Assembly: GCA_002104985.1 (NCBI GenBank)
Contig: MCGO01000144.1
Location: 1-64,000, forward strand
From: Rhizoclosmatium globosum
Lineage: Eukaryota; Chytridiomycota; Chytridiomycetes; Chytridiales; Chytriomycetaceae
Direction: 5' to 3'
Length of the DNA stretch: 64,000 nt
The notes beneath the pieces are model-generated. The model saw only the letters and a program-made list of their open reading frames with translations. It ran no database searches and had not been told where the DNA came from. The first letter of the stretch is position 1; every line of letters starts with the position of its first letter. Positions 6,300 to 13,086 of this stretch are shown here, piece by piece. A program made the translations under genes and the position numbers.

Positions 6300-7257
6300 A
6301 GAGGACAGTAACCTGGAGGACGCTGTTGGAGGACGGTAACACAGGACGCTGTTGGAGGACGCTGTAGGAGGACGGTAACACAGGACGCTGTTGGAGGACG
6401 GTAACCTGGAGGACGCTGTTGGAGGACGCTGTTGGAGGACGCTGTTGGAGGACGGTAACCTGGAGGACGCTGTTGGAGGACGCTGTTGGAGGACGGTAAC
6501 CTGGAGGACGCTGTTGGAGGACGCTGTAGGAGGACGGTAACACAGGACGCTGTTGGAGGACGGTAACCTGGAGGACGCTGTTGGAGGACGCTGTTGGAGG
6601 ACGCTGTTGGAGGACGGTAACCTGGAGGACGCTGTTGGAGGACGCTGTTGGAGGACGGTAACCTGGAGGACGCTGTTGGAGGACGCTGTAGGAGGACGGT
6701 AACACAGGACGCTGTTGGAGGACGGTAACCTGGAGGACGCTGTTGGAGGACGCTGTTGGAGGACGCTGTTGGAGGACGCTGTTGGAGGACGGTAACCTGG
6801 AGGACGCTGTTGGAGGACGCTGTAGGAGGACGGTAACACAGGACGCTGTTGGAGGACGGTAACCTGGAGGACGCTGTTGGAGGACGGTAACACAGGACGC
6901 TGTTGGAGGACGCTGTAGGAGGACGGTAACACAGGACGCTGTTGGAGGACGGTAACCTGGAGGACGCTGTTGGAGGACGCTGTTGGAGGACGGTAACCTG
7001 GAGGACGCTGTTGGAGGACGCTGTTGGAGGACGGTAACCTGGAGGACGCTGTTGGAGGACGCTGTAGGAGGACGGTAACACAGGACGCTGTTGGAGGACG
7101 GTAACCTGGAGGACGCTGTTGGAGGACGCTGTTGGAGGACGCTGTTGGAGGACGGTAACACAGGACGCTGTTGGAGGACGCTGTAGGAGGACGGTAACAC
7201 AGGACGCTGTTGGAGGACGGTAACCTGGAGGACGCTGTTGGAGGACGGTAACACAGG
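6300..7257. repeat. Minisatellite of GGACGCTGTTGGA / GGACGGTAACCTGGA units
   Basis: About 960 bp built from four interchangeable short units: ggacgctgttgga, ggacgctgtagga, ggacggtaacctgga and ggacggtaacaca. Their order forms higher-order blocks. The array has no stops in several minus-strand frames and so throws up long repetitive ORFs, which I do not regard as genes. It begins 130 bp after the family copy at 3461-6165 and ends 30 bp before the coiled-coil ORF at 7287. Confidence 0.95.
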
Positions 7258-7782: not shown

Positions 7783-7847
7783 TTAGTTGGTATGTAACAC
7801 TGCTTCCGCTCGCGAGGTGGTGGGATCAAACCCACTAGAGGGTAGCG
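7783..7847 (+). repeat. tRNA-like (possible SINE) segment
   Basis: The segment ggcttagttggtatg resembles a pol III A box. It is followed about 35 nt later by gtgggatcaaacccac, a perfect T-arm-like hairpin resembling a B box. A full cloverleaf cannot be drawn convincingly, so this is at best a tRNA-derived relic. Confidence 0.3.
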
Positions 7848-7865
7848 GCCCCTGCACACAACGTT

Positions 7866-7952
7866 AGCGTCCTGTGGGTTACGGTCCTGCAAGGTCAGCG
7901 TCCTGTGGGTTACGGTCCTGCAAGGTCAGCGTCCTGTGGGTTACGGTCCTGC
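7866..7952. repeat. 31-bp tandem repeat, 2.8 copies
   Basis: Units at 7866-7896, 7897-7927 and 7928-7952 share agcgtcctgtgggttacggt followed by cctgc and, in the first two, aaggtc. The reverse complement contains GGACCGTAACCCACAGGACG, nearly the GGACGGTAACACAGGACG unit of the minisatellite at 6300-7257. The two arrays therefore appear related and inverted relative to each other. Confidence 0.85.
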
Positions 7953-7997
7953 AGGATGAAGGTGACTCATCCTAATCACCCTAATCCAACAGTATAG

Positions 7998-8017
7998 AAC
8001 CCTAACCCTAACCCTAA
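7998..8017 (+). repeat. Interstitial telomeric repeat (CCCTAA)3
   Basis: Three consecutive CCCTAA units, preceded by ccaacagtatagaa. The same leader precedes the telomeric tract at about 12,980. The tract abuts the 5'-truncated LINE copy directly. Confidence 0.9.
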
Positions 8018-8019
8018 CT

Positions 8020-9188
8020 CAAGGCTCTACCTTAGCCCCACTTCTCTTCAACATCTTCATCAACGACCTTGCCCATCTCTTAGACAACACCCTTCCCCCC
8101 CACAGAGGCAACACTCCTACATCTCTCTTTGCCGATGATGTGGCCGTCAGAACAAACTCCAACGAAAATCTCCAAATTGCCTTTACCGAAATCTCCCGCT
8201 GGTGCCAACAGAATCGTATGTCCCTCTCTCCAACTAAGTGCTTTACTATCAACTACTCTGGTCCCGCCCTCATCTACAACAACACTCGAATTGCAAACAC
8301 TAACTCTCACAAATACCTTGGTATCAACATTTCTACTTCAGGCCCCTTGTTCTATCAGTACTACACTGGCAAGATTCACCAAGCTCGTCAAACCTTCCAG
8401 AAACTCTCGAACTCGCCTTTCGCTCGCTTTTGGCATCCCCACCACCGCCGAAACATATTCTTCTCACTTATCCGTTCACGATGGGAATATGCCACTCCTC
8501 TCGCAATGGCTGTACTTACCCAACAGCAGCTCTCTTCTCTAGACTATCTTGGTACTACACTCATCAACTCTGTCTGCCAGTGGATCTTCAAGCCATTTCA
8601 ACAACACCTGCCTCTACCTGTGCCATCTCCACAAGTTCGCTACCTACTTGGAATCCAGACGTACCGCGATCGTGCCAACTACCTTGTCGCCCTTCTAGCC
8701 GCAAAGCCTCCAACACTCATCCCTACACTTTCACCCGATGCTTGTACTCTCACAACCTTTCTTCGACACTTGCCTCTTGTCAACCAAATTCGTACGTACT
8801 TCCATCAATCCGACGAACTTGACTTGAAAACCGCCATCAAACGATACTTCCGCGACCAAGAAATCCACTCGAACCAGCAACTTAAGCACATTATCTTCAA
8901 ACCCTTTTCAGGAATGGCAAACGTTCTCAAACACTCTCAACTCACAGCTTCACAACAGTCTGCCCTTGTTCGTCACAACTTGTCTCTAGCCCACCGGCCA
9001 GACCCTCTTGTCACCAAAGCCCTAGCCAAGAACGATCTTGTATTTGCTTACCGCCGACTTGTATTTCTTCGCCAACTCTGAATACTCTTGAAACTCTAAC
9101 TTCTTTCGACTCTTGCTTTTTCAATCTTATTCTAACCTAAACTCTGTTGGTATCCACGGAATAAAGAATGTTCAAAAAAAAAAAAAAA
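8020..9188 (+). mobile_element. 5'-truncated telomere-associated LINE copy
   Basis: Nearly identical to 11459-12621 of the longer copy. The only differences I found are one substitution (cat versus cag near 8070) and two single-base homopolymer differences. The copy starts inside the reverse transcriptase with caaggctctacc directly after (CCCTAA)3. It reads in one frame through the RT catalytic motif FADDVAV to the stop at 9079-9081, then a ~92-bp 3' UTR and poly(A) at 9174-9188. Here the C run at 8095-8101 has seven Cs and keeps the frame; the longer copy has six. Truncation inside the RT is typical of target-primed reverse transcription that stopped early. Poly(A) is followed by CCCTAA-like sequence. 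Confidence 0.88.
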
Positions 9189-9228
9189 CCTGACCCTAAT
9201 ACTACCCTAACCTTAACCCTAGAACCCT
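9189..9228 (+). repeat. Degenerate telomeric tract between LINE copies
   Basis: Follows the poly(A) of the truncated copy and contains ccctaa, taccctaacc and ttaaccctagaaccctg. It is C-strand telomeric sequence with mutations, in the same orientation as the other tracts in this region. Confidence 0.75.
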
Positions 9229-9234
9229 GCGGAT

Positions 9235-10258
9235 GTGGCTGTGCAGACCAATTCTACTTTGAACTCTGCCAGACTTAGTCAGACAAACCCTGCCAAGACT
9301 CCATCTTCAAACCCTTCTTCCATTAGTCATCCACAAGCTTCTGGATCATCTTCAAACCCCTCTCCTGCAATTCAAAAAGGCAAAGCCAGAGAGACTTCTC
9401 CTGAATATGGAATGACTGATCCTCGCCTCTTGGATGATTTGATTACCCGCCTTACGAGCTCCATTGCTGCCACTTTTACTGATGCTTTAGATGCTTTGCG
9501 TGCTGACCTTCTAGTGTCCAGGGATGAGGTGAAATCGTTATCCGAAACCCTTAAGCGCCAATCTGATGAAGTTATCGCTCTTCGCAATGAGTTACACGAA
9601 GTCAAATCTCAATATTCTGCTTCTGTAATTTCTCGCGCACAACAATCTACCGCCTCCTCTGCCTCCTCCCTCCGTTCTGATGTCTCAGGGGCAACCCGAC
9701 TTACTTGGGCTGAAGCCACTGCTCGTCATCGCCCTGCCTCTCCTATCCAACAAAACCCTGAAGTACGACAAGTACTTGACTCCCTTGTGAACCCTGCCCC
9801 ATCCCAACAATCCCAACCCCCTGTCCCCCTCCCACAAACGTCGACTTTTATCGCAATTTCACGCAAATTGAGAGAGACCTTAAAGTCGCGATCATTTATG
9901 TTGCTGGAATCAAAAGTCTGACATATCGTGAAATTAAGTCTAAATTGAGTGAGCTTAAGTTTCCAACATCTGAGATCTATAACGTCTCCAAAATTTCTCC
10001 TAACACCCATGAATTTGCAGTCAACATTGTCTATGCTGCCCACATTGCCAAACTCTTTCACTCGCATGGCATCAAAGTTCTGGACAAGTTTGAAATGGAC
10101 CGACCTACTGCTACACCCAAACAGATTCAATGGAATGCAGACCGAGTGAAGAAGATCTCTGACTTGAACCCCAATCGTGCAGTTCGTGATTACTACTATG
10201 AGTGGCACTGCTTCCTTCAAAGAAATTCCCAAATGTCGTCGATGTCAATGTTGAAATG
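9235..10258 (+). pseudogene. LINE gag-like region (ORF1 part), frameshifted
   Basis: The N-terminal 90 residues are Ser/Pro/Asn-rich. A helical, coiled-coil-like stretch follows (DALRADLLVSRDEVKSLSET to about residue 140), then a shift near 9830 into another frame encoding YRNFTQIERDLKVAIIYVAG and on to MDRPTATPKQIQWNADRV. Around 10225-10240 a CRRCQC motif followed by a downstream Cys is visible in a third frame and resembles a degraded zinc knuckle. The open frame at 9235 starts with GTG; an ATG lies two bases upstream but out of frame, so the true start is unclear. Assignment as a nucleic-acid-binding Gag relative rests on position and composition, not on a recognised domain. Confidence 0.55.
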
Positions 10259-10699
10259 AGCGAAGAAACTGCCAGCAACACTCAAATGAATTCCAACACC
10301 ACCCCCCTACCATGCCTTCTACTCAGTCTAACAACTCTCGTGCCAATGACCAATAAAGCCCAAGCCTTTATTCCTCAATACTCTTCTCGCATAAACTACC
10401 GCCGTCAACCTCGCCTCAATCTACTACCACAACACTACACCCCCCTCTTTCGCAACACTATTTCCCCTCCAACATCCCCAAACAACTCCCAACATCTCAT
10501 CAACGAAATCTACAACCAACTCACCGACAAACTTCGTTCAATTGCCCTTGATCTCTATGACCCTTTCATTTCCAAAATCTCATCCTCTGACCCCAAAACC
10601 AATCCCAAGAATCCACCTATTAAACCTCCTGTCTCCACCACAGAAGCCATCCGCCAAGCCCAGAAATCCCTCCACCAGAAACCCCACCATTTACACCGT

Positions 10700-12518
10700 C
10701 CAAAGAACTTCTAGAAAATGCTCGTACATCCTTCCACAAATTATTTGCCTCAGCTGACCCTAACTACTCTGAACCGCCACACCCTTTCCCTGACAATGAA
10801 CAACCACCTCCACTGCCCCAAAACTTTGAATTCTCCACGCCGCAGCAAGTCACCAACATAATCGAAAAACACCCCCTCCACAAAGCCTCTGGTCCCGACA
10901 GTATATCCATAGATCTCTTGAAACACCTCTGCCTCACAACCGACCTTCCCGACCTTCTATCTGCCATGTTTAATCAAATCTTTGTCTCTGGAATTATCCC
11001 CGAACAATGGAAAGCCTTCACCACAGTCCTTATCCCAAAATCAAGCACCCCGCCAGCAAACCCGTCTCTCCTCGACTTCCGTCCCATTGGTCTTAGTAAC
11101 ATCCTCCGTCTCCTCTACGAAAAACATCTTCTTGTATATCTAAAACAGTTCACCTCCCTCCACCCTAGCCAACAGGGTTTCGTCAAAAATCGCTCAACTA
11201 TCTGTAACCTGAATTGGGCCGCCAACACTTCCCACCAGTCCACTCGAACACTCCTTCTCGACTTCCACAAAGCCTATGACACCGTTGACATCCACATCCT
11301 CCTCTTCAAACTTGAACAAAATATTCGCTCCACCGGTCACTGTCCCATTCTTCTACAACTCCTTGCAGCCATCCATCAACTCTTCTCCACCACTTTTACC
11401 AAAATCTGCATCAACTCCAAACTCTCTCGTACAATCCGCCGCAGCCGTGGCCTCCCACAAGGCTCTACCTTAGCCCCACTTCTCTTCAACATCTTCATCA
11501 ACGACCTTGCCCAGCTCTTAGACAACACCCTTCCCCCCACAGAGGCAACACTCCTACATCTCTCTTTGCCGATGATGTGGCCGTCAGAACAAACTCCAAC
11601 GAAAATCTCCAAATTGCCTTTACCGAAATCTCCCGCTGGTGCCAACAGAATCGTATGTCCCTCTCTCCAACTAAGTGCTTTACTATCAACTACTCTGGTC
11701 CCGCCCTCATCTACAACAACACTCGAATTGCAAACACTAACTCTCACAAATACCTTGGTATCAACATTTCTACTTCAGGCCCCTTGTTCTATCAGTACTA
11801 CACTGGCAAGATTCACCAAGCTCGTCAAACCTTCCAGAAACTCTCGAACTCGCCTTTCGCTCGCTTTTGGCATCCCCACCACCGCCGAAACATATTCTTC
11901 TCACTTATCCGTTCACGATGGGAATATGCCACTCCTCTCGCAATGGCTGTACTTACCCAACAGCAGCTCTCTTCTCTAGACTATCTTGGTACTACACTCA
12001 TCAACTCTGTCTGCCAGTGGATCTTCAAGCCATTTCAACAACACCTGCCTCTACCTGTGCCATCTCCACAAGTTCGCTACCTACTTGGAATCCAGACGTA
12101 CCGCGATCGTGCCAACTACCTTGTCGCCCTTCTAGCCGCAAAGCCTCCAACACTCATCCCTACACTTTCACCCGATGCTTGTACTCTCACAACCTTTCTT
12201 CGACACTTGCCTCTTGTCAACCAAATTCGTACGTACTTCCATCAATCCGACGAACTTGACTTGAAAACCGCCATCAAACGATACTTCCGCGACCAAGAAA
12301 TCCACTCGAACCAGCAACTTAAGCACATTATCTTCAAACCCTTTTCAGGAATGGCAAACGTTCTCAAACACTCTCAACTCACAGCTTCACAACAGTCTGC
12401 CCTTGTTCGTCACAACTTGTCTCTAGCCCACCGGCCAGACCCTCTTGTCACCAAAGCCCTAGCCAAGAACGATCTTGTATTTGCTTACCGCCGACTTGTA
12501 TTTCTTCGCCAACTCTGA
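10700..12518 (+). pseudogene. LINE reverse transcriptase, one frameshift at a C run
   Basis: Non-LTR reverse transcriptase motifs appear in order: HKASGPDSISIDLL; GIIPEQWKAFTTVLIPK; LDFRPIGLSNILRLLYEKHL; QQGFVKNRSTI; LLLDFHKAYDTVD; SRGLPQGSTLAPLLFNIFIN; then FADDVAV, the catalytic YxDD-type box. A single missing C near 11533-11538 (six Cs versus seven in the truncated copy) shifts the frame just before FADDVAV. The remainder reads on to 12518. The C-terminal 250 residues have no CCHC or endonuclease-like signature. As drawn, this copy should not yield a full RT unless the shift is a sequence error. Confidence 0.85.
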
Positions 12519-12620
12519 ATACTCTTGAAACTCTAACTTCTTTCGACTCTTGCTTTTCAATCTTATTCTAACCTAAACTCTGTTGGTATCCACGGAATAA
12601 AGAATGTTCAAAAAAAAAAA

Positions 12621-12652
12621 ACCCTAACCCTAACCCTAGTCCTAACCCCTAA
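12621..12652 (+). repeat. Telomeric repeat after LINE poly(A)
   Basis: ccctaaccctaaccctagtc followed by ctaacccctaag, joined without spacer to the poly(A). This is the junction expected if the reverse transcriptase primed on a TTAGGG 3' end. Confidence 0.9.
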
Positions 12653-12964: not shown

Positions 12965-12973
12965 GTTGATCCA

Positions 12974-13032
12974 ACAGTATAGAACCCTAACCCTACCCTA
13001 ATTCTAACCCTAAAACCCTAACCCTAATTATA
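12974..13032 (+). repeat. Degenerate telomeric tract
   Basis: After ccaacagtatagaa come ccctaaccctaccctaattc and taaccctaaaaccctaaccc, ending in taattataatc. All is C-strand sequence in the same orientation as the other tracts. Within about 55 bp it gives way to the truncated 5' end of the second family copy. Confidence 0.85.
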
Positions 13033-13086
13033 ATCTGGTATAGATGTGGTTTGATCCTAACTCTCCTAACTCTGGAGTATAGAACC

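Follow-up and report, generated by a model that had tools for sequence, protein, structure and literature searches.

How a LINE that appears to encode no endonuclease comes to be inserted in telomere-type repeats is the question raised by two copies of such an element in the window, by which we mean the whole 64,000-nucleotide stretch of Rhizoclosmatium globosum DNA analysed here (G000:C51:1-64000; the genome searched is 56.9 Mb in 420 contigs). The glutamate dehydrogenase of the host shares 97% identity with the Rhizoclosmatium globosum protein, other chytrids coming next, which marks the host as this fungus or one close to it. The element has a reverse transcriptase (RT) and no recognisable endonuclease, its poly(A) is mostly joined to telomere repeats, and its 5' end faces the contig end. 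With a probability of about three in four, we conclude from sequence comparison that it inserts by using the exposed G-strand 3' end of the telomere as the primer for cDNA synthesis.

Organisation of the element in the window

The first copy (C51b, 8020..9173; all features are on the plus strand) is 5'-truncated inside the RT and carries an open frame at 7966-9081. Its 5' end is abutted by telomere-type repeats CCCTAACCCTAACCCTAAC at 8000..8018, with a 5' flank score of 22/24. The poly(A) of this copy, 15 A long (9174..9188), is followed by CCTGACCCTAATACTACCCTAACC, and a degenerate telomere-type spacer (9189..9221; 3' flank score of the first copy 21/24) separates the two head-to-tail copies. 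The earlier note had let an element begin at 9189; this position belongs to the spacer, and the second copy (C51a) extends from about 9222 to 12609. It is 5'-truncated inside ORF1, shares 99.4% identity with the first copy over 1180 aligned columns, and is 98.2% identical to a longer copy, G000:C35:15916-19335, which extends further upstream. ORF1 (9223..10259), gag-like by position, matches no Pfam family above the cut-off, and is broken in C51a by a frameshift between 9223-9921 and 9780-10259. ORF2 (10346..12518), the RT frame, begins with an ATG overlapping the stop frame of ORF1; it is likewise frameshifted in C51a, with RVT_1 matches at 11068-11529 and 11469-11768. The second poly(A), 12 A long (12610..12621), continues with CCCTAACCCTAACCCTAG and is fused to telomere-type repeats at 12622..12652 (3' flank score 22/24). 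The description of both copies as ending in poly(A)-CCCTAA and beginning against CCCTAA-type sequence is borne out at 8000-8018, 9174-9221 and 12610-12652. The sequence CCCTAACCCTAA occurs four times in the window, against 0.00 occurrences expected from shuffles.

ORF2 encodes a reverse transcriptase and no recognisable endonuclease

An uninterrupted ORF2, from its ATG through to the stop, is present in one copy only, C374. The frame encodes 724 residues, its ATG overlaps the ORF1 stop, and RVT_1 is matched at 5.2e-28 with nothing else above the Pfam cut-off. The room ahead of the RT, put at about 170 residues from the window alone, is 161 residues before the profile match in this intact copy. 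Seven copies cross the ORF1/ORF2 boundary, and none of them has an insert there. No apurinic-like (APE) endonuclease was detected in ORF2 by Pfam at E values up to 1; in the control, a 1284-residue ORF from another LINE family of this genome, two endonuclease models are matched at 1.3e-7 and 1.5e-7. Pfam alone is a weak test of absence, as the proteins P0010 and P0019 carry visible endonuclease motifs yet give no Pfam endonuclease match at E up to 1, and the seven endonucleases closest to the element in the RT tree were therefore used to make a profile. Held-out members were recovered at 7.8e-28, 6.5e-32 and 6.7e-37. Outside the endonuclease-bearing rows, the best E value in four runs was 0.69 (the relative P0009, see below), and in six-frame translations of seven stretches with copies of the family it was 2.4. 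The restriction-like CCHC pattern is absent from ORF2 and from all three of its relatives, by a pattern test that had no positive control. Pfam and the related-endonuclease profile agree with the initial reading of ORF2 as lacking a visible endonuclease.

None of the copies found reaches the element's own 5' end, the longest starting inside ORF1; an endonuclease encoded upstream of ORF1 is unlikely. Among the matches listed, this genome holds no longer, endonuclease-bearing version of the element. A fragment on C395, 92% identical in the ORF1 region, was considered as a longer copy and rejected as a relic with no further 5' part.

Codon comparison between copies speaks to the fate of the ORF2 protein. 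Biallelic sites in ORF2 number 58 synonymous and 31 nonsynonymous, giving a pN/pS of 0.165 across 12 of the 15 copies, which share ancestry and are not independent. Compared singly with C374, ten copies have ratios of 0.13-0.31, and the eleventh, C409, has 0 synonymous and 2 nonsynonymous changes; seven of these 11 copies carry indels in ORF2. The sign is clear: codon substitution shows purifying selection on ORF2, and a pN/pS of 0.165 implies that the protein has been retained without an endonuclease.

Affiliation of the reverse transcriptase

The RT is placed in a tree set together with APE-bearing LINEs (support 100/99); the tree holds no Penelope sequence and none recognised as CRE-clade. 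All ten PDB sequence matches of ORF2 are R2 proteins and L1 ORF2p, and the closest structures to a fold model of the relative P0007 are also L1 and R2. The P0007 fold comparison lists no endonuclease, although a missing match there is of little weight. With the RVT_1 match, these results uphold the assignment as a LINE-type RT.

Three proteins, P0007, P0008 and P0009, are 32-42% identical to ORF2, and all begin behind the position where an endonuclease would lie. ORF2 groups with these relatives in a single clade (100/100), next to which stand seven LINEs with an endonuclease. A scan of viral and prokaryote contigs with an alignment of the four rows gave no further relatives. Fewer than 200 residues before the RT (1-183) are also found in 21 of the 72 other tree rows, scattered among endonuclease-bearing rows; none of the 21 falls within the 11-row set of four short and seven endonuclease-bearing proteins. 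These 21 rows are probably partial gene calls, and P0008 and P0009, less likely P0007, could be partial as well. Because short proteins are common among the tree rows, the odds are lowered both for a lineage without endonuclease and for the mechanism proposed below. A longer relative with an endonuclease, a possibility raised in the earlier note, has thus been met with a divided answer: none is present in this genome among the matches listed and three relatives are short at the same point, but the relatives may be partial. On balance we lean slightly towards a clade of LINEs that lost its endonuclease once, long ago, and has since primed on chromosome ends in telomerase-bearing hosts, with the telomere as its sole target. 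The loss would then fall on the stem of the four-member clade. If the relatives are complete, the lack of an endonuclease would be a lasting way of life rather than the state of one broken copy.

Copies in the genome and their 3' junctions

Searched as two halves at the DNA level, the element was located in at least 15 and at least 11 places. Identity to the window copy is 93.6-99.4%, a 52-bp fragment excluded. A poly(A) of 7-18 bases ends all 15 copies examined at their 3' junctions, and truncation points are many and different. The copies represent 13 distinct 3' flanks, C371 and C62a sharing one and C318 and C366 another; the two flanks on C35 have a 24-base degenerate telomere stretch in common and may not be fully independent. 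A flank was called telomere-type when at least 18 of the 24 bases after the poly(A) match CCCTAA repeats, which is the case in 12 of the 15 copies and, counting distinct flanks, in 11 of the 13. When 20,000 sites were drawn at random from the contigs that carry the copies, with the junctions kept in, a score of at least 18/24 had P 0.00185. The exceptions are C395 (12/24, non-telomeric), a 43-bp fragment on C62 (16/24) and C366 (17/24), the last a duplicate of C318 (18/24) and counted together with it. The one copy with a non-telomeric 3' flank, C395, would be where to look for a target-site duplication, but its contig ends inside the element.

The expectation that every 3' junction would be poly(A)-CCCTAA in a single register is correct as to the type of sequence in 11 of the 13 flanks, and not as to the register. 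Read by eye, the first bases after the A run in the 11 telomeric flanks are CC in five, CCC in two, CAA in two, and C and T in one each. Several registers would be produced by an open end stopping at different bases, where a single cut site would give one; TTAGG variants inside the arrays could also contribute.

Polarity and 5' ends

The 5' end of the element is directed toward the nearer contig end in all 14 copies that could be judged; one further copy lies midway along a 22-kb contig and is ambiguous. Contig ends serve here as a proxy for chromosome ends, except in C371, which ends in telomere repeats. Beyond the truncated 5' end in C371, 81 bp of telomere-type sequence run to the contig end, and this is the sole copy capped by terminal repeats; five contigs end inside the element. 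Ten 5' flanks are visible. Five contain telomere repeats (C51a, C51b, C371, C374 and C389), three (C35a, C35b and the C62 fragment) are another repeat ending in AGTATAGAAC, and two, from the one duplicated locus C318/C366, are unrelated DNA. Two scores need comment: the 10/24 of C51a was read from 9189 and thus covers the poly(A) of C51b, the true flank being the spacer at 9189-9221, and the 18/24 of C35a falls in another repeat and was left out of the telomere count. The junctions and the 14/14 polarity confirm telomere attachment in the orientation in which a TTAGGG-strand 3' end could act as primer, as had been proposed, end-priming itself being the inferred step.

Repeats neighbouring the element were noted separately. 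The shared repeat end AGTATAGAAC is found in the window at 7986-8000, 12971-12985 and 13070-13085, and across the genome there are 83 places of CCAACAGTATAGAAC and 25 of CTCTGGAGTATAGAAC with this ending. For CCAACAGTATAGAAC, the 37 plus-strand matches all fall within 22 kb of contig starts, and 44 of the 46 minus-strand matches, judged by coordinates, are in the far part, a polarity equal to that of the LINE, with C379:3558 and C412:21390 as exceptions. Several of these repeat ends run directly into CCCTAACCC or into truncated ends of the LINE. The repeat end AGTATAGAAC may mark other retroposons added to chromosome ends. Long minisatellites adjoin it (window 6314-7247 and 7859-7953; G000:C35:2859-7609), and the C35 minisatellite region contains a coiled-coil-like frame of 122 residues and a 738-residue frame with no Pfam match. 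Motifs resembling tRNA box A and box B, seen by eye near the repeats at 7790-7850 in the window and in L049, possibly belong to tRNA-derived SINEs. In the whole assembly, an 18-mer of three exact CCCTAA units has at least 135 (overlapping) matches on the minus strand and at least 7 on the plus strand; the high-coordinate ends of contigs seem to have kept most telomere arrays, which is probably due to the assembly.

A second, endonuclease-bearing LINE family

The same genome contains the endonuclease-bearing LINE that served as the Pfam control, here family 2, as opposed to family 1 for the element described above. It is found at G000:C318:12043-15894 (-), on C201, C381, C366 and elsewhere, near contig ends and with an open frame of 1284 residues. 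Its own 3' end is GTTAGGGTTAGG, without poly(A), and several copies lie inside one repeated gene-like sequence. At G000:C63:88000-88950, a family 2 copy broken inside its ORF is directly followed by a terminal TTAGGG array, as in chromosome healing. Family 2 was considered as a longer form of the endonuclease-less LINE and rejected, since its RT is only 32-33% identical to that of family 1 and its 3' end is unrelated.

The two families differ in polarity. Among 16 stronger matches of family 2, taken as independent copies, the 3' end is turned to the near contig end in 13 of the 15 that could be judged and the 5' end in two, one more being ambiguous. Among the weaker matches, the five on contigs of known length (C10, two on C35, C90 and C111) are likewise turned with the 3' end to the nearer contig end, and the count leaves aside C279 (probably with its 5' end toward the contig end), C398 and C178. 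Most family 2 flanks are non-telomeric, and with its own GTTAGGGTTAGG end this limits the contrast with family 1 to polarity. Oriented as it is, family 2 could start its first strand only at a nick made in the C-rich strand. Family 1 lies so that the G-strand 3' end of the chromosome itself could be used as the primer.

Proposed priming on chromosome ends and its alternatives

In the mechanism we propose, the element's poly(A) RNA would be the template on which the ORF2 protein directly extends the end of the TTAGGG strand. Early halting of the RT would leave 5'-truncated ends, and the new end would be capped by telomerase or by a further element, giving head-to-tail copies with short CCCTAA tracts between them. 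A TERT domain is present in the same genome (Telomerase_RBD, 1.3e-15).

An alternative, which we hold possible though unlikely, is opportunistic repair, in which the RT-RNA complex primes at any broken end and telomeres are simply the commonest accessible one. The C395 and C62-fragment junctions and the 5' ends joined to other repeats fit such a process. Telomeric flanks nevertheless number 11 of 13, despite the scarcity of such sites even within subtelomeric contigs (P 0.00185). It is in any case a broader form of the same endonuclease-free mechanism and does not contradict it. Less probable still, and in our view improbable, is that an endonuclease acting in trans, for example that of family 2, nicks the telomere arrays and that the element is a half-autonomous parasite. 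In favour of family 2 as donor are its APE matches (1.3e-7 and 1.5e-7), its location near contig ends and its GTTAGGGTTAGG 3' end. Its polarity is nevertheless the opposite (5' to the near end in 2/15 against 14/14), so that a family 2 cut would have to be made in the other strand, the two RTs are far apart (tree path 3.73), the 3' ends are unrelated, and the junction registers of family 1 vary rather than mark one cut. Finally, we think it very improbable that telomere-telomere recombination or break-induced copying accounts for most of the spread of what is now a fossil element, with polarity and flanks reflecting only that process, since the shared flanks of C371/C62a and C318/C366, the 24 bases common to the C35 flanks and the ORF2 indels in 7 of 11 copies compared with C374 are outweighed by 13 distinct 3' flanks, poly(A) lengths of 7-18, varied truncation, identities of 93.6-99.4% and a pN/pS of 0.165, which argue for repeated retrotransposition from a working source.

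Comparison with known telomeric elements

In searches of the open-licence literature we found no earlier report of a LINE-type RT without endonuclease at telomeres. The telomeric LINEs taken here as having a described endonuclease are TART, TAHRE, SART, TRAS, MoTeR1 and FoTeR; Zepp, GilM/GilT and Tx1-1_ACar were left out. In layout, our element resembles MoTeR of Magnaporthe, described as a fungal non-LTR element in TTAGGG repeats with the 5' end nearest the chromosome end, head-to-tail arrangement, short TTAGGG tracts and 5'-truncated copies (PMC7367193); here, too, the 5' end is nearest the (contig) end and telomere tracts lie between head-to-tail copies. FoTeR of Fusarium is a telomeric fungal LINE, likewise in TTAGGG repeats, grouped with MoTeR, CRE and SLACS (PMC12857005). 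In these accounts, both MoTeR and FoTeR carry a (putative) restriction-like endonuclease, and the terminus of MoTeR1 itself bears telomere-like repeats (PMC7367193, PMC12857005). Unlike in MoTeR and FoTeR as so described, neither the restriction-like motif pattern, tested without a positive control, nor a telomere-like terminus was seen in the Rhizoclosmatium element. Since MoTeR combines this layout with an endonuclease, the arrangement by itself is no proof that priming occurs without one.

According to a review, an APE endonuclease is retained by TART and TAHRE of Drosophila and by SART and TRAS of the silkworm, and HeT-A lacks a pol gene (PMC5537684). Our element shares with this group that it is a LINE at chromosome ends or in telomere repeats. 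As far as that account goes, it differs from SART and TRAS in that no telomere-specific APE endonuclease was found, and its genome, with the Telomerase_RBD match at 1.3e-15, differs from those of the Drosophila hosts of HeT-A and TART, which are without telomerase. TART, TAHRE, SART, TRAS, MoTeR1 and FoTeR all keep an endonuclease, even the first two, for which transposition to an end should not need one; the review poses the conservation of the TART/TAHRE endonuclease as an open question (PMC5537684). If our reading is true, a LINE maintained by selection at TTAGGG ends without an endonuclease would demonstrate that nature can dispense with the cutting step, and the compact RT (about 724-740 residues) would lend itself to the study of end-primed synthesis.

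The same review describes how, in end-joining-deficient rodent cells, L1 with a defective endonuclease uses chromosome ends, and an end-priming model goes with it (PMC5537684). Both cases feature a LINE RT at chromosome ends without cutting of its own. In comparison with the defective L1 as reported there, the Rhizoclosmatium element is naturally endonuclease-less, under selection, and housed in a genome with a TERT domain.

Endonuclease-deficient Penelope-like elements, such as Athena of rotifers and others in some fungi, protists and plants, are located largely at chromosome ends (PMC3846280, PMC5537684), and an exposed 3' end has been proposed as their primer, with 5' truncation followed by added telomere repeats (PMC3846280). 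These reports describe features also seen in our element, which has no detected endonuclease, terminal attachment, telomere repeats at its 3' end and a capped truncated 5' end, the cap at a contig end being observed in C371 only. Unlike the Penelope-like elements, it has a LINE-type RT rather than a Penelope-type, telomerase-related one, a separate ORF1 and a poly(A) tail. It is an element that works like the endonuclease-deficient Penelope elements but belongs elsewhere, and, if the proposed priming is true, it would link LINEs to the mode of end extension used by Penelope elements and telomerase.
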